DNA from: Egibacteraceae bacterium
GTDB taxonomy: Bacteria > Actinomycetota > Nitriliruptoria > Euzebyales > Egibacteraceae
Direction of reading: 5' to 3'
DNA length: 64,000 nt
Assembly (NCBI GenBank): GCA_030446775.1
Contig: JAUJMQ010000010.1
Coordinates: 1-64,000, forward strand
Position numbers and translations under genes: made by a program. Numbering within the stretch: position 1 is the first letter of the stretch; each line of letters begins with the position of its first letter. Positions 3,901 through 19,064 of this stretch are shown in pieces. A model generated the notes under the pieces. The model ran no database searches, had not been told where the DNA came from, and worked only from the letters and a program-made list of their open reading frames with translations.

Positions 3901-4425
3901 CTACGCGCCCCTCTCCAGGCGCAGCCCGCGCCCGTCGGTGATGCTGCGTGCTCCCCGGCCCACGGCGATCATCCCCGAGCGGACGAGCTCGCGGATCCCG
4001 TAGGGCTCCAGCAGCCGCACGAGCGCGGCGAGCTTCTCCGGCGATCCTGTCACCTCGAGGGTGAGGGTCTCGGTGTCCACGTCGACGACGTTCGCCCGGA
4101 AGACGCTCGCGACCTCGATGACCTGCGAGCGCGTGCCGGCGGCGGCGCCGACCTTGATCAGTTGCAGCTCGCGCTCGACGGCGGTGTCGCGCTCGAGCTC
4201 GACGATCTTCAGGACGTGGACGAGCTTGTTGAGCTGCTTGGTGACCTGCTCGAGCGGCGCGGCGGCCGCGTCGACGACGATCGTCATCCGCGACACCCCG
4301 GCGACCTCGGTCGGCCCGACGGCGAGCGACTCGATGTTGAAGCCGCGTCGGCTGAACAGCCCGGCAACCCGGGCCAGCACGCCCGGACGGTCCTCGACGA
4401 GCACCGACACCGTGTGGGTCGCCAT
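3901..4425 (-). other. ilvN: IlvN (acetolactate synthase regulatory subunit) region with its own internal start
   Basis: This marks the part of the ilvB frame that corresponds to a complete small subunit. It contains ACT-domain residues ([20 protein letters not shown]) that bind valine for feedback inhibition, followed by the ACT-like C-terminal half (LELQLIKV-like segment, [16 protein letters not shown]). The ATG at 4425 is preceded at 8-9 nt by AGGGAGGGG. The ribosome site has therefore been kept even though the frame upstream is open. That supports a second, separately translated product from the same message. Confidence 0.6.
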
Positions 4426-6288
4426 CGCAGATCCCCTCCCTTCGACCTGTTGTCTGGGCGCCGGCGCCGTCGCGCCGGGCGCACCCTGGACCGCGTCGCC
4501 CTCGTGCATCGAGGCGGGCAGCGCGGCGCCGCCCGGCTCGCCGCTGCCGCCGGGCACCCCGGCGGCGGCCTTGGCGTACCACTCCTGGGCCGACTCGACG
4601 ATCTCGTCGTTGCTCGCGCCGGCGGGGACCATCGGAAAGACCTTCTCGGTGACGTCGACGCGGAAGTCGACCACCACGGGGACGTCGCCGACGGCGAACG
4701 CCTTGTCCAGGGTCGACTCGACGTCCTCCGGCCGCTCGCAGCGCAGGCCGGCGCAGCCGAAGGCGTCGGCGAGCTTGACGAGGTCGGGGACCTCCCAGCC
4801 CAGGTCCACCGACGACCACCGGCCGCCGTAGAACAGCTCCTGCCACTGGCGCACCATCCCGAGGGCGCCGTTGTTGATGACGCAGAACACGACGGGGACG
4901 TGCTCGGTCCGCGCTGTGGCGAGCTCCTGGAGCGTCATCTGGAACGAGCCGTCACCGTCGATCGCGACGACGGTGTCGTCGGGCCGGCCGATCTTGGCCC
5001 CGATCGCGGCCGGCACGCAGAAGCCCATGGTCCCCAGGCCTCCGGAGTTGATCCAGCTGCGGGGACGCTCGTAGGCGATGTGCTGCGCGGCCCACATCTG
5101 GTGCTGCCCGACGCCGGTCACCACGATCCCGTCGCCGGGCAGCCGCTGACCGATCGCGCGGATGACCGTCTGGGGCTTCAGCGGCCCGTCGAGCTGCTGG
5201 TCGACCCGCAGCGGGTGCGCTCGCCGCCATTCGTCGAGCGTCGCCCACCACGGTGAGAGGTCCGCCGGCGTCTCGCCGGCCGCCAGCAGCTCACTGACGG
5301 CTGCCACGAGCTGCTCGCCGACCTCCCGGCAGTCACCGACGATGGGCACGTCGACGGCGCGGTGCTTGCCGATCTCCGCCGGGTCGATGTCGACGTGGAC
5401 GATGCGCGCCCCGGGGGCGAAGGCGGACAGCTTGCCCGTCACCCGGTCGTCGAAGCGGGCGCCCAAGGCGAGGAGGAGGTCGCTGCGCTGCAGCGCGGTG
5501 ACGGCCGTCCAGTGCCCGTGCATGCCCGGCATCCCCAGGTGCTGCGGATGGCTGTCGGGGAACGCGCCCCGCGCGGTCAGCGTGGTCACGACCGGCAGCC
5601 GCAGCATCTCGGCGAGGCGGCGGAGAGGATCGTGCGCCGCGGCGCGGATCGTGCCGCCGCCGACGTAGAGGACGGGCCGCCTCGCGGCCAGCAGTGAGCG
5701 CGCCGCCTCCCGCACCATCTTCGGGTGGCCGCGCAGGGTCGGCCGGTAGCCCGGCAGCGTCAGACGGTCCGGCCAGCGGAACGGGCACCGCTGCGTCAAG
5801 ACGTCCTTGGGGATGTCGACGAGCACCGGGCCCGGGCGACCGGTCGCCGCGATGTGGAACGCCTCTTTGATCGCACCGGGGATGCGTCCGGCATCGGTGA
5901 CCATCTCGTTGTGCTTGGTCACCGGCATGGTGATGCCGGTGATGTCGGCCTCCTGGAACGCGTCGCCCCCGACGGCGCCCGTGGGCACCTGCCCGGTGAT
6001 CGCGACGAGCGGCACGGAGTCGCAGTGCGCGTCGGCGAGAGCGGTGACGAGGTTCGTCGCCCCCGGACCCGAGGTGGCGAGCACCACCCCCACCCGGCCG
6101 GTGGCGTGGGCGTAGCCCTCCGCCATGTGCCCGGCGCCCTGCTCGTGGCGCGCCAGGACGTGGCGGACCGGGCTGTCGAGCAGCGGATCGTAGGCCGGGA
6201 GGATCGCGCCTCCCGGATGGCCGAAGATCACCTCGACGCCCTCGGTCTCCAGGGACCTGATGACGGCCTGCGCTCCGGTGATGTCCAT
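3901..6288 (-). CDS. ilvB: acetolactate synthase, large and small subunits in one reading frame
   Basis: Residues 1 to about 590 are the ThDP-dependent catalytic subunit. [15 protein letters not shown] and the [14 protein letters not shown] helix carry the activating Glu, and the ThDP site runs [12 protein letters not shown] to [11 protein letters not shown]. After a Gly/Ala/Pro-rich linker of about 40 residues, the regulatory subunit begins at [17 protein letters not shown] (an ACT domain) and continues for 174 aa. No stop codon separates them. A good ribosome site (GAAGGGAGGGG) precedes the internal ATG at 4425, so free IlvN could also be made. The enzyme forms acetolactate for valine and leucine or acetohydroxybutyrate for isoleucine. 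ilvC follows directly. Fusion of the two subunits is unusual; a lost stop codon or a sequence error between them is the alternative. Confidence 0.93.
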
Positions 6289-6699: not shown

Positions 6700-7386
6700 T
6701 CAGCGCACGAGGCCGTGACGCATCGCGATCACGACGGCCTGCACCCGATCGGTGGCCTTGAGCTTGGCGTAGAGCTTCGACAGATGGCTCTTCACCGTCT
6801 CGTCTCCCAGCCCGAGGGTTTCGGCGATCTCCCGGGTGGACTTGCCGGTGGCGAGCTGCTCGAGCACCTCCTGCTCGCGCTTGCTCAGCTGGTCGAGCCC
6901 GGCGTGCATCGCCAGCGGTCCCACCCGCTCCAGGAACGGTCGCGTCACGTCGGGGTGCAGGAAACCCTTGCCCGAGGCGACGGCACGGACCGCCTGCACC
7001 AGCTCCTCGCGCCGCACGTTCTTCGGCAGGTAGCCCGCCACGCCGGCGGCCACCGCGCGCGTGACCGTGTCGTGGTCGGTGAACATCGTGAGCGCCACCG
7101 TCTGTGTGGCCAGCCCCCGGACGCCGATCTCACGGACCGCGGCCAGCCCGTCCATGCCGATGAGGTTGACGTCGACGAGGGCGACCTGCGGCTGGTGCTC
7201 CTCGACGGAGGCGACGAGGTCCTCACCGGAGGTGACGATCTCCACGACCTCCATGTCGTCCTCGAACGACAGCATCGTGGCGACTCCGTCGGCGACGACG
7301 CCGTGGTCCTCGGCGATGACGATGTGGATCAGGCCGGCGTCCGCAGCGGCCGCCGGACCGGTCGGGGCGGTACGCACATCGCTCAC
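6700..7386 (-). CDS. NarL/LuxR-family response regulator
   Basis: The 228-aa protein has an N-terminal receiver domain (about residues 19-140) with acidic residues E26 and D27, phosphoacceptor D72 in ALVDVNL, and conserved K near YLPKNV. A linker follows, then a LuxR-type helix-turn-helix (about residues 160-225: LSKREQEVLEQLATGKSTREIAETLGL, then KSHLSKLYAKL). It is the DNA-binding partner of the histidine kinase encoded immediately upstream, whose stop codon overlaps this GTG start by 4 nt. The pair may read the NKSGW peptide array further upstream, by gene order only. Confidence 0.93.
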   Translation of the reverse strand: MSDVRTAPTGPAAAADAGLIHIVIAEDHGVVADGVATMLSFEDDMEVVEIVTSGEDLVASVEEHQPQVALVDVNLIGMDGLAAVREIGVRGLATQTVALTMFTDHDTVTRAVAAGVAGYLPKNVRREELVQAVRAVASGKGFLHPDVTRPFLERVGPLAMHAGLDQLSKREQEVLEQLATGKSTREIAETLGLGDETVKSHLSKLYAKLKATDRVQAVVIAMRHGLVR

Positions 7387-9053
7387 AGCGGCACCTCCAC
7401 CCGCACGCTCGTCCCCGTCCCCGGCGCGCTTTCCACCGTGAAGGTACCCCTCGCGAGCTCGGTGCGCTGCGCCATCAGGGCAAGTCCGTGGTGCCCCGGC
7501 GGCACCGTGGCGGGATCGAACCCGCAGCCGTCGTCGGTCACCTCGACCTGGAGCGCCTCGCCGACCACCCGCAGCTCCACGGTCACGTGTTCCGCACGCG
7601 CGTGGCGGGCGATGTTCGTGAGGCATCCGCGGACGAGCTCGAGGGCCATGATCTCGACCGCCAGCGGCAGCTGCGGCATCGGATCGGGGGCTCGCAGGTC
7701 GTTGCCCACGCGGGCGTTGACCCGCAGCTCCTCCAGGGACTCCCGCAGCGCGGGAAGCAGGCCGCCAGGTACGACGATCTGCCGGCGCAGTGCCTCCAGC
7801 ACGTCGCGCAGGTGGCGGATTCCGCCGTTGACGGCCTCGCGGGTAGCGCCCGCCAGCCGGTCGGCACGTTGGGGGTCGCCGCCGCCTAACGCCGAGCGCA
7901 CGTTGTCGGCCTGGATCTCGGCCGCTGCGAGGAAGGGCAGCACCTCGTCGTGGATGGCCAGCGCGATGCGGCTGCGCTCGCGGGTGCCCTCTTCCAGGAT
8001 CCGGCCCGACAGCGCCACCCGCGCGCGCTGGCCTTCGGCCACCTCGGTCTCCAGGACGACGCGCTGCAGCGCCATCCCGAGCAGACCCGCGGCCGCCTCG
8101 ATCACGGCCAGCGTGGGGCCAGGCACCTCGGGGGGCACCCCGATGGCCGCCGGCTCGGCCCCCGGCACCTTCACGACGAGCAGCTCCGCGCTGACCATCC
8201 CCGACAGCGAGAACTCCACGGGCCCGGTCTCCAGCAGCTCCCCGAGGGCGGCGGCGCCTGTCGTCGCCACCTCGTCGGCGCGCCGCGACGACAGCAGCGC
8301 CGTGCCGAGTCGGTTGAGGTTCTCCAGCTCCTCCACCTGCGCCGCGAGCTCCTCGGCCCGGTCCTCCGCCACCCGCGCCGACCGCAGCGCGCTGTAGCCG
8401 AGGTAGCCCGGAGCGGCCAGGAGCAGAGGCGCCCACACCCCGATGACCTCGTAGCCGAGCACGATCGCCAACGCGAGGAGTGCAACGAGGCCGTAGTCGA
8501 CGACGAATCGCGGGAAAGGCGCCGCGATGTCACGAGCCGCTCTTCCGAAGCCGAGGCGTCCTCGCAGGTTCAGCCAGAAGGTGACGGCGATGGTGTTGAC
8601 CGCGTTGTGCACCAAGACCGCCGCCAGCGTCGTCCAGACCGGCCCGAACGGCAGACCCTGGGCGACGATCGCCGCCGCGTAGGCGGACAGGGCGATCTGC
8701 GAGCGATTGAACAGGATCGCCCACGCCGAGGTCCCTCCGCGGAACTCCCGCTCGTTGGTGAAGCCGGCGAAGTTGACGATCAGCGCGAGCGGAGGCGGCA
8801 GGACAACGGACGCGGCCACGGACACGGATGCACCGATGCCGGCGTCGATGTCGTATTTCGGCAGGACCGGGATGGTCAGCAGGTTGGCCGCCATGAGGCA
8901 GGCGGTCCACACGAGCAACTCGATCCAGCGGCCCGGCAAAGCGCCGAAGGATCCGGGAAGAGCAACCAGACACAACCCCGCGAGTCCGAGGACGTATCCG
9001 CGCAGGGCGAGCGACGTCCCGGCGATGCGTCGCTCCGTCTTGCCGTCCGTCAA
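7383..9053 (-). CDS. membrane histidine kinase (NarL-type DHp domain)
   Basis: The N-terminal half holds about seven hydrophobic helices without a large extracellular domain (about residues 15-220). A short coiled-coil (RAEELAAQVEELENLNRLG) and a GAF-like region follow. A HisKA_3-type helix carries the phosphoacceptor His in RIALAIHDEVLPF, and an ATPase domain has N-box NIARHARA, the DDGCGFDP G1 box and GHHGLALM. The start is taken as the TTG at 9053 because AGGAGG lies 6 nt before it; a GTG at 9086 lacks such a site. It is translationally coupled to the response regulator. A sensor made only of membrane helices fits membrane-embedded or small-ligand sensing. The micro-ORF array ends about 90 nt upstream on the same strand. 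Confidence 0.9.
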   Translation of the reverse strand: MTDGKTERRIAGTSLALRGYVLGLAGLCLVALPGSFGALPGRWIELLVWTACLMAANLLTIPVLPKYDIDAGIGASVSVAASVVLPPPLALIVNFAGFTNEREFRGGTSAWAILFNRSQIALSAYAAAIVAQGLPFGPVWTTLAAVLVHNAVNTIAVTFWLNLRGRLGFGRAARDIAAPFPRFVVDYGLVALLALAIVLGYEVIGVWAPLLLAAPGYLGYSALRSARVAEDRAEELAAQVEELENLNRLGTALLSSRRADEVATTGAAALGELLETGPVEFSLSGMVSAELLVVKVPGAEPAAIGVPPEVPGPTLAVIEAAAGLLGMALQRVVLETEVAEGQRARVALSGRILEEGTRERSRIALAIHDEVLPFLAAAEIQADNVRSALGGGDPQRADRLAGATREAVNGGIRHLRDVLEALRRQIVVPGGLLPALRESLEELRVNARVGNDLRAPDPMPQLPLAVEIMALELVRGCLTNIARHARAEHVTVELRVVGEALQVEVTDDGCGFDPATVPPGHHGLALMAQRTELARGTFTVESAPGTGTSVRVEVPL

Positions 9054-9140
9054 CTCCAGCCTCCTCGACCGCGCCTCGCGCGACACGCGGCGGCGCGACT
9101 AGTGCGGCCACCGCGCGTGCGAAAGCCGCGGTCAGCCAGC

Positions 9141-9423
9141 CTACCAGCCGCTCTTGTTCGCCATCACGCTCACCACCCGCTCTTGTTGCACCGGGCCGAG
9201 GCCGACAGCCAGCCGCTCTTGTTCGCCATCACGCTCACCACCCGCTCTTGTTGCACCGGGCCGAGCCGACAGCCAACCGCTCTTGTTCGCCATCACGCTC
9301 ACCACCCGCTCTTGTTGCACCGGGCCGAAGCCGACAGCCAACCGCTCTTGTTCGCCATCACGCTCACCACCCGCTCTTGTTGCACCGGGCCGAAGCCGAC
9401 AGCCAACCGCTCTTGTTCGCCAT
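9141..9423 (-). repeat. 65-nt tandem repeat encoding chained NKSGW micro-ORFs
   Basis: There are about four and a half copies of a 65-nt unit (one copy is 64 nt), and each contains the 11-mer CCGCTCTTGTT twice. Read on the minus strand, a unit is ATG, 19 codons and TGA (MANKSGWLSASARCNKSGW), then GCGTG, then the next ATG. The micro-ORFs lie at 9364-9423, 9299-9358, 9170-9229 and 9141-9164 (MANKSGW then TAG). The 64-nt copy lets the ORF starting at 9293 run to 9141. Each stop is 5 nt from the next start. The array follows directly after the peptide gene at 9429-9518, which ends in NRSGW. Whether the units are translated is unproven. Confidence 0.8.
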
Positions 9424-9428
9424 CACGC

Positions 9429-9518
9429 TCACCACCCGCTCCGGTTCGCGGCGCCGGCGCTCATGAGCGCGGCGATGGCGGTCAACATGGAAAGCACGCG
9501 CGGGGAGAACTTGTGCAT
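9429..9518 (-). CDS. short signal-peptide-like protein ending in NRSGW (29 aa)
   Basis: The ATG at 9518 has a strong ribosome site (GGAGGT, 7-8 nt upstream). The protein has a positively charged start (MHKFSPR), a hydrophobic core (VLSMLTAIAALMSA), small residues GAA and the end NRSGW. It therefore looks like a signal peptide whose cleavage after GAA or AGA would leave a penta- or hexapeptide. The same pentapeptide (NKSGW) recurs nine times in the repeat that begins 5 nt after its stop codon. It lies upstream of, and on the same strand as, the kinase/regulator pair, so a secreted signal-peptide precursor is a reasonable guess. It is not recognised from any known family. Confidence 0.5.
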   Translation of the reverse strand: MHKFSPRVLSMLTAIAALMSAGAANRSGW

Positions 9519-9741
9519 GGGAGCTACCTCCAAGGGTGAATACAGCAGGTCGCTCATGGGCCGTCGTACGGCGTCGCGACCGGAAAGAGTGAGCGGGGTG
9601 CAGGGGCCTCGCTCGATCGGATTGTGACATAGCATCCTAACCACGAAAAGTCGACCAGGCCAGCCTGTCTGACTCTGTGTGATCGCAAGATCGACGGAGA
9701 GCAATAGCGCGCTCGCCGCTCGCGTGATATAGGGGCTCGCC

Positions 9742-10116
9742 GTGTCGACTGGCACACTGGCCGTAGTGGGCTCTTATGAATATTTGACGCTGCTGTGCGC
9801 CTGTCTCGTCGTCACCGCGCCGCTGGAGTTGTGGCTCGGCGTGCGGGTCTACCGCCAGGCACTGCGGCTGGGGCTCTCCCTCGGCTGCATGGGCGCAGTC
9901 TTCGTCGGGTGGGATCTGCTGGGCGCCCGCCTCGGGCACTGGGCCTACAACCCGCAGGCCGTCACCGGACTGCGCCTGCTCGGCCTGCCCCTGGAGGAGT
10001 ACCTGTTCTTCGCCGTCGTGCCGCTGTGCGCGATCCTCGCGTACGAAGCGGTCCGGCTCACGCTCGACGGCGTCTCGGCGTGGCTTCGGGCCAGGCGCCC
10101 GGGACGCCGGGCATGA
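9742..10116 (+). CDS. crtYc: lycopene cyclase subunit, CrtYc type
   Basis: A small membrane protein (124 aa) with three hydrophobic helices and the diagnostic PLEEYLFF motif at about residues 86-93. This matches the first subunit of heterodimeric actinobacterial lycopene cyclases, which close beta- or epsilon-rings on lycopene. The GTG at 9742 is the longest start; a GTG at 9766 (GSYEYLTLL) would better match family N-termini. The TGA overlaps an ATG that opens a chain of micro-ORFs leading to the second subunit gene, crtYd. Confidence 0.85.
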   Translation: MSTGTLAVVGSYEYLTLLCACLVVTAPLELWLGVRVYRQALRLGLSLGCMGAVFVGWDLLGARLGHWAYNPQAVTGLRLLGLPLEEYLFFAVVPLCAILAYEAVRLTLDGVSAWLRARRPGRRA

Positions 10117-10257
10117 GCCGCCCGGCGCTTGAGGTGCAGGCGTAGGCCACCGGTGCTTGAGGTGCCAGCGTGAGCCGCCCGGCGTTTGAGGTGCGGGCGT
10201 GAGCCGCCCGGCGCTTGAGGTGCAGGCAGGCCGCCCGGTGCTTGAGGTGCCAGCGTG
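10113..10257 (+). repeat. 28-29-nt tandem repeat of overlapping micro-ORFs between crtYc and crtYd
   Basis: Five imperfect units of the form GTGAGCCGCCCGGCGCTTG plus AGGTGC(A/C)(G/A)GC fill the gap between the two cyclase genes. They create a relay of stop/start overlaps. The crtYc TGA overlaps an ATG (MSRPALEVQA, ends 10145). A GTG at 10170 gives MSRPAFEVRA and ends at 10202. Its TGA overlaps a GTG at 10199 (MSRPALEVQAGRPVLEVPA), whose stop overlaps the crtYd GTG at 10255. Because the unit is not a multiple of three, the frame rotates along the array. Confidence 0.8.
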
Positions 10258-10595
10258 AGGTTCGGCTACACGGTGTTCTGCCTTGTGGCCCTGGGGTTGA
10301 CCTTCGGCCTGGAGCGGATCCTGCGCACCGGGATCTTGCGGGACCGTCGCTTCTGGATCGCGATGGCGATCGTCGGCTTCTTCCAGCTCGTCGTCGACGG
10401 CTGGCTGACGTGCCGGCCGGTGGTGACCTACGACGAGCGTCAGTTCAGTGGGGTGCGCCTGGGCTGCCCCGACGTCACTGGTTCCGGGCGGGGGGCATGC
10501 CGCTGGAGGACCTGCTGTTCGGGTTCGCGATGATCACCCAGGGGCTGATGTGGTGGGTGTGGTGGGGACGGCGGCTGGGCGCGGACGTCGACTGA
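10255..10595 (+). pseudogene. crtYd: lycopene cyclase subunit, CrtYd type, with a single frameshift
   Basis: The first part (from GTG 10255, MRFGYTVFCLVALG to YDERQFSGVRLG) and the second part in another frame (PLEDLLFGFAMITQ, ending WWVWWGRRLGADVD at 10595) together make one CrtYd-like membrane protein with its P-x-E-D motif. The two halves are out of frame by one base, apparently a deletion between about 10455 and 10500. As sequenced, the first frame ends at 10533 without the motif. It may be a true pseudogene or a sequence error; the adjacent fni gene shows the same kind of defect. It would form a heterodimer with CrtYc. Confidence 0.75.
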
Positions 10596-14819: not shown

Positions 14820-16336
14820 GTGCGCGCTCCGACCGGCGACGGCAGGCCCAGCATCCCGGTGACCCGCTGCGCGGCGAGCTTGCCCGACACGAGCACCATC
14901 GGCACGCCGACGCCGGGGGTGGTCCCCGACCCTGCGAACACGACGCCCGCGACCTTGGGCGCGACGTTGGCCGGACGGAACGGCCCCGTCTGGGCGAAGG
15001 AGTGGGACGCCGCGAACGGCGTGCCCGCCGCCATCCCCTGACGGGCCCAGTCCTGCGGCGTGACCACCTCGCTGACGGCGACGGTCGCGGACACGTCGCC
15101 GTAGCCGGCCGCGCTCAGCCGCCGCAGCGCCGCGTCGAGCTCGCGGGGTGCCTGCGCGTCCCAGTTCAGCATGCTGCCGCGCAGGTTGGGTGTGGGCAGC
15201 AGGTAGAAGCCCACCGTTCCCCCGTCGGGGGCCATCGCCGGCTCGCTGACCGTCGGCACGGTCAGGAACCACGACGGGTCGCGCTGCAGCCGTCCGGCGA
15301 GGATGTCGTCGAAGGACTCGGCGTAGTCCTGCGCGAAGTGGATGTTGTGGTGCGCCGCCCCGGCGAGCCGGGCCCGCAGCCCGAGATGGACCACGACGCA
15401 CGAGGGCGAGTAGCGCAGCCGGCGGACTCGCCGTGGGGTCGTCTCCTCGGGCAGCAGGTCGCGGTAGGCGACCGGCAGGTCGGGGTTGAGCACGACGGCG
15501 TCGCATCCGAAGCGCTCGCCGCCCGCCGCGCGGACGGCGACGGCCCGCCCCCCGACGACCTCCACCCGCTCGACCGGCGTGGACAGGCGCAGGTCGACGC
15601 CGGCGCGCACCGCGAGGTCGGCCAGCCCGCGGCTGACCGCGTGGATGCCCCCGTCCGGGAAGTAGACCCCGGCGATCGCGTCCATGTAGGCGATGACGGC
15701 GTACACGCCGAGCGCCTCGTAGGGGCTCATGCCGGCGTACATCGCCTGAAAGGTGAACAGCCGCACCATGCGCCAGTCGGTCAGGAACGACGACACGAGC
15801 GGCATCATCCTGCGGAACCCACCGAGGCGGGCGAGGCGCGCGATCCGCACGGGACGGGCGAGATCGACAGGCGAGTCGAAGTTGGTGTCGATGAAGCCGT
15901 CGTACTCGGCCTCGTACAGCGCCTTCAGGTGCGCGGCGAAGCGCACGAACCGTGACGCCTCGGCGGGACCGCACACGTCGCGGACCTCGGCCTGCATGGC
16001 CTCGACACTGCCGCGGATCCGCAGCACCGAGCCGTCGTGGAACACCGCGCGGTAGGCCGGGTCGAGCCGGCGCAGGGTCAACGCGTCCGCCATCGACTCA
16101 CCGGCCAGCGCGTAGAGCTCGGCCACGAGCGCCGGCATCGTCAGGACGGACGGCCCGGTGTCGAACTCGAAGCCGTCCCGGCTCAGGCGTCCCGCCCGCC
16201 CGCCCGGCCGGTCCGCGCGCTCGAGCACGGTGACCGCGACCCCTGCGGTCGCCAGGCGGATCGCCGCGGCCAGCCCGCCCAGACCCGCGCCGACGACCAC
16301 GACCCGGCGGGCGCCGGGACCGGCGACGGCGCTCAC
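14816..16336 (-). CDS. crtI: phytoene desaturase
   Basis: A 506-aa FAD-dependent desaturase converting phytoene to lycopene (or neurosporene). The N-terminal dinucleotide site is VVVVGAGLGGLAAAIRLA and is followed by LERADRPGGRAG. The C-terminal family signature runs VVFAGSGTTPGVGVPMVLVSGKLAAQRV. The GTG at 16336 overlaps the crtE stop, and its own stop overlaps the crtB start. It lies in the middle of the carotenoid run whose product feeds the CrtYc/CrtYd cyclase about 5 kb away. Confidence 0.95.
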   Translation of the reverse strand: MSAVAGPGARRVVVVGAGLGGLAAAIRLATAGVAVTVLERADRPGGRAGRLSRDGFEFDTGPSVLTMPALVAELYALAGESMADALTLRRLDPAYRAVFHDGSVLRIRGSVEAMQAEVRDVCGPAEASRFVRFAAHLKALYEAEYDGFIDTNFDSPVDLARPVRIARLARLGGFRRMMPLVSSFLTDWRMVRLFTFQAMYAGMSPYEALGVYAVIAYMDAIAGVYFPDGGIHAVSRGLADLAVRAGVDLRLSTPVERVEVVGGRAVAVRAAGGERFGCDAVVLNPDLPVAYRDLLPEETTPRRVRRLRYSPSCVVVHLGLRARLAGAAHHNIHFAQDYAESFDDILAGRLQRDPSWFLTVPTVSEPAMAPDGGTVGFYLLPTPNLRGSMLNWDAQAPRELDAALRRLSAAGYGDVSATVAVSEVVTPQDWARQGMAAGTPFAASHSFAQTGPFRPANVAPKVAGVVFAGSGTTPGVGVPMVLVSGKLAAQRVTGMLGLPSPVGART

Positions 16337-17541
16337 ACCGAGCGGAACGCGGCCAGGTCGGCCAGCTCGGACAGCGCCGCCCGCGCCGGCTCCGGCAGCC
16401 GGCCCGCCGCCCGGCAGGCGGTTTCCTGCTGCCCGGCCAGCATCCGCTCGACGGCGTCGAGCGCCCCGCACGACACGATCGCCTCTCGCGCGCGGTCGGC
16501 GCCTGCCTCGTCGAGGTCGGGGTTGCCCAGCGCCGCGCCGACCACCGCCCGCACCTCGCGGGTGCCCAGCTGCAACGCGCGCAGGACCAGCACGGTCCGC
16601 TTGCCGCCCCGCAGGTCCTCCAGCGCCCCCTTGCCGGTCACGGCGGGGTCGCCGAACAGCCCGAGGATGTCGTCGCGGAGCTGGAAGGCGAGGCCGACCG
16701 CGTCGCCGTAGGCGCACAGCGCCTGATCCAGCAGCGGGTCGGTGCCGACGATGGCGGCACCCAGCTGCAGCGGCCGCGTGACCGTGTAGCGCCCCGACTT
16801 GAGCAACGCGACCCGCCGGGCGTCGACCTCCGTCGCGGTCGTCAGGCCGGCCAGACGCAGGTCGAGGTACTGCCCGGCCATCACCTCCACGCGCAGCGCC
16901 CCGAACACGCGCCGCGCGCGCTCGATGGCGTCGGGCGGCAGGTCGGCCTCGTCGAGCAGCTGGTCGGCCCACACGAACGCGAGGTCGCCGGCGAGGATCG
17001 CCCCGCCGACCCCGAACCAGCCGGCGTCGCCGCTCAGCCCCTCCGCGCCGTGGGTGCCCGCGAGCGACACGTGGGCGGCGGGGCGGCCGCGCCGCTCGGC
17101 GGAGCGGTCCATGACGTCGTCGTGGATGAGCGCGAAGGTGTGCAGCAGCTGGACCGCGGCGGCGGGCACGGTGACGCCATCGTCGTGCGGCGCCCCGGTC
17201 GCGCGGTGACCCCAGTAGACGAACGCGGGCCGCAGGCCCTTGCCGCCGGTCGCGACGAGATCGGCGACCGCCGCGCCCACGGGCCGCAGCGCCGGGTCGA
17301 GCTGCTCGAGCTCGGCCACCCGTTCGGCGAGGAACCCGGTCAGCAGCCGGTCGACGGGCCCGACGACGTCGTCGAGGACCCACAGCCCGTCAGCGCCGCG
17401 ACCGAGGTCGCTGTCGCGGCCTCGCCCAAGGTCCGGGGCGGCGGCCAGGTCGGAGGAAGTCGTCGAGCCCAGCGTCGTGCCCCTGTCGCGGTCGGCGCGC
17501 CCCGCACCTCCACAGCGCGGCGCAGGCCACCCTACCGTCAC
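16333..17541 (-). CDS. crtE: polyprenyl (geranylgeranyl) diphosphate synthase
   Basis: An all-helical prenyltransferase elongating allylic diphosphates with IPP, presumably making GGPP for CrtB. The first Asp-rich motif is IHDDVMDRS and the second is QLRDDILGLFGD. The GGKGLRP segment and KSGRYTVTRPLQLG are also present. The 402-aa length includes an extra N-terminus of about 45 low-complexity residues. The only in-frame start there is the GTG at 17541, which overlaps the gatB stop by 4 nt, so carotenoid synthesis is translationally coupled to gatCAB. GGPP versus another chain length is inferred from context. Confidence 0.9.
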   Translation of the reverse strand: MTVGWPAPRCGGAGRADRDRGTTLGSTTSSDLAAAPDLGRGRDSDLGRGADGLWVLDDVVGPVDRLLTGFLAERVAELEQLDPALRPVGAAVADLVATGGKGLRPAFVYWGHRATGAPHDDGVTVPAAAVQLLHTFALIHDDVMDRSAERRGRPAAHVSLAGTHGAEGLSGDAGWFGVGGAILAGDLAFVWADQLLDEADLPPDAIERARRVFGALRVEVMAGQYLDLRLAGLTTATEVDARRVALLKSGRYTVTRPLQLGAAIVGTDPLLDQALCAYGDAVGLAFQLRDDILGLFGDPAVTGKGALEDLRGGKRTVLVLRALQLGTREVRAVVGAALGNPDLDEAGADRAREAIVSCGALDAVERMLAGQQETACRAAGRLPEPARAALSELADLAAFRSV

Positions 17542-19064
17542 CCGTCGGGAGCGGTCAGCCGCCCGGTGAGCAGTTCGTTGACCAGTGCGGGGTTGGCTTG
17601 CCCCTTCGTCGCCTTCATGACCGCGCCGACGAGCGCGCCGACGGCCTTGCGGTTGCCGTCGCGGACGCGCTGCGCCGCGGCGGGGTCGGCGGCGATCGCC
17701 GCGTCGACGGCGCGTTCGAGCTCCCCGGTGTCGGAGATCTGTGCCAGGCCGCGGGCCGCGGCGACCTCGCGCGGCGGCCCCTCGCCGGCGAGGACCCTGT
17801 CGAGGACCTGGCGTGCGAGCTTCTTGCTCAGCGTCTGGTCGGCGACGAGCGCGGTCAGCTCGGCGAGGTGCGACGCGGTCAACGGCGCGGCGGCCGGTTC
17901 CACGCCCCGCTCGTTGGCCCAGGCGGTGACCTCGTTGGTCAGCCAGTTCGCGGCCTCGGCGGCCGGCGCGCCCGCGGCCACGGCCTCGTCCAACAGCGGC
18001 GCCAGCCCAGCGCCGACGACGCCGGCGGCCTGCTGCCCGGACAACCCCAGGGACTCGACAAGGCGCGCCCGGCGGGCGGCCGGCAGCTGTGGCAGCGACG
18101 CGCGGAGCTCGTCGACCCATGCGGGGTCCGGCTGCACCGGCACGAGGTCGGGGTCTGGGAAGTAGCGGTAGTCCTCGGTCGTCTCCTTCACCCGCAACGT
18201 CGAGGTCGTGCCCGTCGCCTCGTTCCAGTGCCGGGTCTCCTGCACCACCGGCTCGCCGCGGGTGAGCAGGTCGGTCTGGCGGGCGATCTCGTAGGTGATC
18301 GCCCGGCCGAGGGAGCGCACCGAGTTCATGTTCTTGACCTCGGCGCGGGTGCCGAACACGGTGTGGCCGACCGGGCGCAGCGAGACGTTGGCGTCGCAGC
18401 GCATCGACCCCTCCTCCAGCTTCGCGTCGCTGATCCCGAGCGCGAGCACGATGGCGCGAAGCTCCGTCAGGTAGGCCTGCGCCTCGGTCGCGGTGCGGAT
18501 GTCCGGCTCGGACACCACCTCCAGAAGCGGGATGCCGGCGCGGTTGTAATCGACCAGGCTGTAGTCCGCATCCGAAATCCTCGTCACGCGCAGACCCTCA
18601 GCAGGGTCGACGCCCACGCCCGACGTCGTGTCAAGGACATGAAGGGACTTGCCGGTGTCCTCCTCCATGTGCACCCGGGTGATGCCCACGCGGCGCTCGC
18701 CGGCGTCGGTCGCGACGGTCAGCTCCCCGCCGAGGCAGATCGGGACGTCGTACTGGGAGATCTGGTAGTTCTTCGGCATGTCGGGATAGAAGTAGTTCTT
18801 GCGGTGGAACTGGCTCGACGGCGCGATCTGGCAGCCCAGCGCCAGGCCGAGCCGGATCGCGTACTCGACTGCGCGGCGGTTGACCACCGGCAGGGTCCCC
18901 GGCTGGCCGAGGCACACCGGGCACGTGCGCGTGTTGGGTTCGCCGCCGAAGTCGATCGCGCACGAGCAGAACATCTTCGTCCGCGTGGCGAGCTGGACGT
19001 GGATCTCCAGGCCGATCACCGCCTCGAAGCGGGTCGCCTGTTCCAGGGCCGTCGTGGTGCTCAC
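17538..19064 (-). CDS. gatB: Asp/Glu-tRNA amidotransferase subunit B
   Basis: The tRNA-binding and kinase subunit of GatCAB, which amidates mischarged Glu-tRNAGln or Asp-tRNAAsn. The 508-aa protein has the N-terminal [12 protein letters not shown] signature, the Cys-containing [20 protein letters not shown] zinc-site segment, [10 protein letters not shown], and a C-terminal YqeY-like tail ([30 protein letters not shown]). The GTG at 19064 overlaps the gatA stop and its TGA overlaps the crtE start. Confidence 0.97.

Follow-up and report, generated by a model that had tools for sequence, protein, structure and literature searches.

We describe a locus in an actinobacterial genome in which a gene for a 29-residue peptide, followed by a tandem array of micro-ORFs, lies upstream of a membrane histidine kinase and its response regulator. 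We propose that this locus is probably a peptide signalling module, in which a short linear peptide is sensed by the adjacent membrane receptor. Judged from the sequences compared here, the pairing of peptide and sensor genes is well supported; we infer that the peptide is released and bound by the sensor.

Layout of the locus

The window (the whole stretch of DNA analysed, 64,000 nucleotides) is one of the 78 contigs of a 2.4-Mb genome that is about 60% complete. All genes of the locus lie on the minus strand, in the order 29-residue ORF, 65-nt array, membrane histidine kinase, NarL regulator. The features are:

9526..9531, minus strand: ribosome-binding site GGAGGT of the 29-residue ORF (from sequence)
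9429..9518, minus strand: peptide gene of 29 residues with a signal-peptide-like leader, MHKFSPRVLSMLTAIAALMSAGAANRSGW-stop, from ATG 9518 to TGA 9429; kinase-adjacent homologues are 43-64% identical
9144..9441, minus strand: tandem array coding NKSGW blocks (TRF: period 65, 4.6 copies, 98% matches, score 568)
9364..9423, minus strand: micro-ORF A, MANKSGWLSASARCNKSGW-stop, 20 codons including the stop (ORF reading)
9299..9358, minus strand: micro-ORF B, product identical to A (ORF reading)
9141..9293, minus strand: micro-ORF C, begins MANKSGW, frame shifted by the 64-nt unit, continues to the final NKSGW-TAG (ORF reading)
9170..9229, minus strand: micro-ORF D, product identical to A and B (ORF reading)
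9141..9164, minus strand: micro-ORF E, MANKSGW with TAG stop, 7 residues, last partial unit (ORF reading)
7383..9086, minus strand: sensor histidine kinase with polytopic N-terminal domain, HisKA_3 and HATPase_c (Pfam)
8301..9017, minus strand: proposed receptor: MASE9-like sensor domain within the kinase, with a predicted ECF S-component fold (profile and model)
6700..7383, minus strand: NarL/LuxR-type response regulator, Response_reg and GerE (Pfam)

The 29-residue ORF (9518-9429, behind GGAGGT at 9531-9526) is as an earlier note on this DNA had described it, signal-peptide-like, ending in NRSGW and equipped with a strong ribosome site. It is the founding member of the micro-ORF chain. The same note had rightly counted nine NKSGW blocks after the NRSGW, and the membrane histidine kinase and regulator that it placed next door are borne out by Pfam matches to HisKA_3, HATPase_c, Response_reg and GerE. 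Its description of every 65-nt unit as a complete 20-codon ORF applies to three of the four full units, in which this ORF is intact. The third unit is 64 nt long; with one base lost, its second NKSGW falls out of frame, so that ORF C, which starts at ATG 9293, continues in E's frame and terminates only at the TAG at 9141. Micro-ORF E is leaderless and resembles the MKLAKSGW, MKLTKSGW and MKRASKSAW of relatives.

The array micro-ORFs are separated by gaps of 5 nt. The Gly-Trp-stop of each unit is GGTGGTGA, a near-RBS sequence about 8 nt before the next ATG, and GGTGGTGA of the preceding unit may thus serve as the Shine-Dalgarno (SD) sequence of the next micro-ORF. The kinase ORF opens at GTG 9086, only 54 nt past the last micro-ORF stop; the distance of about 90 nt given earlier is right if translation starts at the alternative TTG 9053, which is preceded by GGAGG. 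A promoter scan of 8950-9800 returned no sigma-70-like site, and the sole terminator-like site in that interval (8991-8976) lies within the kinase gene.

Two further observations concern the surroundings. A second slippage-type array (10114-10259; 29-nt unit, about five copies, most with a TGA/GTGA motif) sits where the lycopene cyclase halves crtYc and crtYd meet, 0.7 kb from the NKSGW array. On the minus strand, 3901-6288 is one 795-aa open frame that combines the large and small subunit domains of acetolactate synthase (TPP enzyme and ACT/ALS_ss_C); ilvB relatives are also found near the kinase in L042, L045, L046 and L050.

Peptide genes beside related sensors

A first search for relatives with the bare 29-mer as query matched 19 of 199 genomes. 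Nine of these matches (G000 included) adjoin a kinase; the other ten, with E-values of 0.15-0.83, were left out as chance matches. Searching for the kinase instead yielded 19 places in 16 of 61 genomes, the window's own included, one of which (L035) is cut by a contig end. An upstream micro-ORF ending in [KR]xxW-stop is present at 17 of the 18 readable kinases, the window among them, and absent at L034 (G018) alone. The earlier note had named relatives that keep the kinase and lack a peptide gene as evidence against a signal; the outcome was the opposite. Counting only ORFs with a clear SD sequence and at most 500 nt upstream, 16 of the 18 kinases have one (the SD at L030 is weak), compared with none of 18 when the opposite strand is read and 0.025 of 18 on average in 40 dinucleotide shuffles.

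The tails at the 17 loci are RSGW (window), KSAW, KSGW, KSAW, RTTW, KSVW, RQLW, KTAW, RSAW, RHIW, RMHW, KSMW, KAGW, KQAW, KMVW, RTGW and KSHW. The first micro-ORF stops at TAG in 12 and TAA in four, with TGA in the window alone; the 17 adjoining kinase genes all stop at TGA. A further relative, L040, has the peptide gene and a second copy of it. In G016, each of three kinase paralogues has its own tail (RTTW, KMVW and SKSHW), and different receptors in one genome are here paired with different tails. At L047, L048 and L051, kinase paralogues with a peptide of their own, no relative of the response regulator of the window was found within 6 kb.

As in the window, the module lies beside carotenoid or isoprenoid genes (crt, idi, dxs) at eight of 14 named loci. 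Such neighbours are absent at L047, L048, L049, L051 and L052, and L046 is cut off on that side. The carotenoid genes would be likely targets, in this one clade only. ACTAGT palindromes occur upstream of the peptide gene at six of the 17 close loci (L023, L025, L026, L029, L032 and L033) and number zero in the kinase and downstream part of those loci. They were set aside as a possible regulator site, being absent from the window and lying in upstream DNA that differs in composition.

Beyond the close relatives, a sensor-domain profile of 17 rows (A2) matched 27 of the 66 genomes searched within the class. Among 396 genomes sampled across the phylum it matched 108, with 148 sensor matches in that set. 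Many of these distant sensors have upstream peptides with a basic start, about 15 hydrophobic residues, a 'GA' or similar small pair and a short tail rich in Trp, Phe or Tyr and in Arg or Lys (for example ...GATWRY, ...GAGWKPY, ...GAGWRW, ...GGAHWKG and ...STVRW). The same 396 genomes were searched with a peptide profile of 27 positions (A3), built from 37 seeds found beside sensors, and 77 of them contributed 118 matches. Of these 118, 86 are no more than 2.5 kb from one of the 148 sensor matches, for which chance would provide roughly 0.1; the seeds inflate this figure, but at least 49 of 81 remain when all 37 are taken out, a number far in excess of about 0.1. All but one of the 86 are upstream of the sensor, 64 on the same strand and 21 on the opposite one. 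Of the 32 peptide matches away from known sensors, 31 were fetched, and 13 of these have a weaker sensor ORF directly downstream.

Conversely, among the 110 distant sensor copies for which 600 nt or more of upstream sequence exists, 68 have a profile peptide within 1.5 kb. Some sensors that lack a profile peptide of their own are the first of a tandem pair sharing one peptide, some are weak homologues and some are real absences; G018 (L034/L074) and several weak homologues have no upstream peptide. In a small control of five genomes, both of the peptide-profile matches lay inside long open frames. An earlier and cruder spatial test, now superseded by the profile test, had given 50 of 113 cases on the same strand and 9 of 113 on the opposite strand, against 0-3 of 113 in shuffles; some of the nine may belong to the divergent peptides described next.

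In 22 loci rows the peptide and the sensor gene are on different strands, with the peptide in the gap ahead of the sensor gene; 21 of these show no overlap. Tandem sensor genes with an opposite-strand ...GGAHWK-like peptide in the gap occur at L098, L103, L104, L105, L112, L114, L118, L124, L133, L140-L142 and L144. Many loci have 2-4 peptide copies; L101, L106, L107 and L116 have four peptide genes upstream of the sensor, with alternating ...GAGWKPY and ...GARWKPN types.

The pairing extends to a second phylum. In Chloroflexota, a broader sensor profile (A4) has matches in 56 of 201 genomes, and 13 of the 30 sensor loci listed have an upstream peptide by a profile that contains no sequence of that phylum, among them ...GGASFKGW and, in two copies, ...GADSRWA. 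The suggestion of 'a peptide signal and its receptor' in the earlier note thus stands strongly as a pairing of genes, given 17 of 18 readable kinase loci, other outputs, another phylum and recurrent copy gain.

Constraint on the tail and nature of the sensor domain

Some micro-ORFs are just 6-8 codons long. Leaderless peptides occur alone (MRKAGW, MRSRTGW, MKRGKQAW and, twice, MRRGRSAW), each with its own AAGGAGGTGA-like site, or as second copies (MKRASKSAW in G005, MKLAKSGW in G020 and MKLTKSGW in L040), whose tails match those of the main copies (AKSGW with AKSGW, TKSGW with TKSGW). This suggests that the tail is the part that is kept. The second copies stand behind different spacers, indicating that copies of the tail end have been gained outside the window too; the comparison of copy number and pentapeptides in relatives that had been called for thus found a retained [KR]xxW-stop tail and extra copies that arose separately in several lineages. 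In G020, a third copy of the tail is not directly preceded by an ATG/GTG start, which shows that some copies are not kept usable. The hydrophobic leader is missing at six of the 17 close loci (L024, L028, L032, L033, L036 and L037), and Sec export therefore cannot be general.

Divergent copies within a locus allow silent and replacement changes to be compared. Most differences are silent: across 22 codons, comparisons among the three copies at L149 show 8-13 silent changes against 1-3 replacements (13 silent and one replacement in one comparison). None of the replacements falls in the last six codons, as holds for the STVRW/SAVRW-type loci. At L171 the tail is constant and replacements fall at position -7 or farther from the end, while the copies at L122 differ at -4 (H or Q). 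Copies at several further loci are identical and uninformative on selection. As far as the sequences go, the tail is thus conserved at the protein level. Among 150 distinct peptides, the last seven residues include a basic one in 145, an aromatic one in 130 and an acidic one in 7. The 52 peptides that end in Trp use TAG or TAA in 49 cases, compared with 59 of the other 98. This bias suggests that the exact C-terminus matters; a stop codon less prone to readthrough would be of consequence if a free C-terminal Trp were recognised.

Ten sensor proteins were scanned for output domains. Three are HisKA_3 kinases, six carry HD_5 (HD-GYP type) and one is a GGDEF-EAL protein (L107). The latter has four upstream peptide genes, which fall into two kinds and approach the sensor to within about 0.7 kb. 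One sensor domain thus appears with three kinds of output, which suggests that the peptide goes with the sensor domain and not with any one output.

Against MASE9 (PF20972) the window kinase scores 20.6 bits, below the Pfam cut-off of 24.3. Eight of ten related sensor proteins show partial matches, six above the cut-off (24.5-37.0) and two below, and two have no match. We know of no ligand for MASE9. The control genomes of Thermotoga maritima and Thermus composti also contain MASE9 matches above the cut-off.

An AlphaFold model of the A2 sensor domain (pLDDT 87.3, pTM 0.80) predicts a six-helix fold. Compared with solved structures it comes closest to the S-component FolT (Z 16.0, rmsd 2.9 over 158 residues), followed by a transition-metal transporter (Z 15.8), RibU and the biotin S-component (about 12) and ThiT (about 11). 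ECF S/M components overall reach Z of about 9-16, and the next group, the apolipoprotein N-acyltransferases (Lnt), 6.5-9.8; Foldseek alone gave E 0.016. The sensor domain is thus predicted to have an ECF S-component fold, which by itself shows no function. Its likeness to FolT, RibU, ThiT and CbiM is one of predicted fold: unlike these ECF components it is fused to signalling outputs, and a sequence search of the domain against solved chains found no match. S-components hold small ligands (vitamins) in a membrane pocket, and such a pocket would suit a peptide of 4-6 residues. Since these ligands are vitamins, that of the sensor could also be a metabolite.

Proposed mechanism, rival explanations and known systems

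In our model, the active part of the peptide, the product of a very small gene, would be the last 4-6 residues (A-N-[K/R]-S-G-W in the window, the C-terminal Trp being free). Most commonly, a leader that is basic and hydrophobic and finishes with the 'GA' motif would bring the tail to the membrane or through it, to be freed there by a cut of the signal-peptidase type; at leaderless loci, the peptide may be exported by another route or act inside the cell. The S-component-like membrane sensor domain encoded by the neighbouring gene would recognise the tail, and binding would alter the fused output, which here is the HisKA_3 kinase acting on the NarL-type regulator and elsewhere an HD-GYP or GGDEF-EAL enzyme. 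The tandem array would add further copies of the end that codes for the tail, each beginning at a start codon of its own and using the Gly-Trp-stop before it as ribosome site, and we propose that the dose of peptide rises with the copies. Translation of the array, cleavage, release and binding, and an action from cell to cell rather than within the cell, are all presumed in this model.

The main rival is that the peptide is a small membrane subunit, or a modulator of the sensor within the cell, that is never released, and that the real ligand may be a metabolite in the S-component-like pocket. Small membrane proteins that tune histidine kinases are known, and a hydrophobic segment in most peptides, the strict adjacency of peptide and sensor genes and the vitamin-binding S-component fold of the sensor would all be in keeping with it, as would the leaderless forms, which require no export if the peptide acts within the cell. 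However, leaderless peptides of 6-8 residues are too short to span a membrane, conservation lies in the tail and not in the hydrophobic segment, and recurrent copy gain and receptor-specific tails fit a ligand better, so that we consider this role unlikely. We find it highly improbable that the peptide is a RiPP precursor, a modified natural product rather than a linear signal: a conserved core of Trp and Lys/Arg behind a leader-like part would fit, but leaderless forms of 6-8 residues exist, and the neighbours identified at the window and the 14 named loci, with the window genes as probes, are only carotenoid, isoprenoid, ilv and two-component genes. A short ORF with a strong SD just upstream of a sensor gene, with a conserved C-terminus beside the stop and a bias in the stop codon, could further be read as a cis-acting leader peptide that governs the sensor gene by attenuation or by ribosome arrest at the Trp-stop. 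The 22 opposite-strand loci rows and the 2-4 copies at many loci make this very unlikely, and the tails vary among relatives, many of them not ending in Trp. An attenuator or riboswitch was likewise set aside in view of the opposite-strand loci and of the window at 8900-10400, which has no notable Rfam match (one chance hit lies far below the gathering score).

A different question is whether the array is mere replication slippage of the tail of the peptide gene, with the founding gene in use and the extra ORFs idle. We regard this as a real, if lesser, possibility. The units are 98% uniform, the 64-nt unit breaks the frame, a second slippage-type array (10114-10259) lies 0.7 kb away and the third copy in G020 without a start speaks for disuse of copies. 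On the other hand, the final unit and all but one of the four full units retain start, frame and stop, and separate extra copies in G005, G020, L040 and G012 keep start and frame and match the main tail. With regard to the indels that the earlier note had named as a test, one unit is out of frame and the other full units and the partial one are in frame. Its 'slippage-grown repeat' is partly borne out by the uniformity of the units and the single frame-breaking base loss; the expansion, of a slippage type, multiplied the part that codes for the conserved tail. A signal and slippage are not mutually exclusive for the array: its uniformity points to a recent expansion, and what expanded is the signal-coding end.

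Taken together, we favour a peptide signal, and the pairing of a small peptide with a kinase is in itself a known kind of system. ComX-ComP-ComA, the quorum sensing system of Bacillus, resembles the window in that it encodes side by side a small linear peptide in which a Trp is key, a polytopic kinase of the HisKA_3 type and a regulator of the NarL/LuxR type. Homology to ComX was rejected: five peptides, the window's included, matched neither ComX nor any other Pfam/NCBIfam model at E up to 5. Unlike in the ComX system, no ComQ-like gene adjoins the peptide gene of the window, which is flanked by the kinase and crtYc; the closest PF00348 polyprenyl synthase found (open frame 16333-18120) is about 7 kb off in the carotenoid cluster. 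The signal here moreover appears to be the last 4-6 residues, and c-di-GMP enzymes are among the outputs of the sensor. Streptococcal XIP/SHP and the enterococcal sex pheromones are likewise short linear peptides, cut from small precursors or signal peptides; their receptors are cytosolic regulators, whereas the proposed receptor here is a membrane sensor domain.

In the open-access PMC literature we found no paper on such peptides, and as far as searched, neither the peptide family nor its S-component-like receptor nor a direct coupling to c-di-GMP enzymes has been described. The passages considered of a 2022 review of c-di-GMP sensing list MASE1, also a membrane-associated sensor, with domains that have no discernible purpose, and do not contain the word 'pheromone' (PMC8846402).

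Most of the peptide genes are shorter than about 32 codons, and the five tested have no family model; such genes are thus easily missed by annotation. If the peptides are signals, they provide a ligand hypothesis, open to test with synthetic peptides 4-6 residues long, for a membrane sensor domain found on kinases and c-di-GMP enzymes. We hold it an even call whether they form a cross-phylum family, in Actinomycetota and Chloroflexota, of aromatic/basic pheromones of 4-6 residues, whose S-component-fold receptors, carried on kinases, HD-GYP or GGDEF-EAL proteins, would connect them to a two-component pathway or to c-di-GMP turnover.
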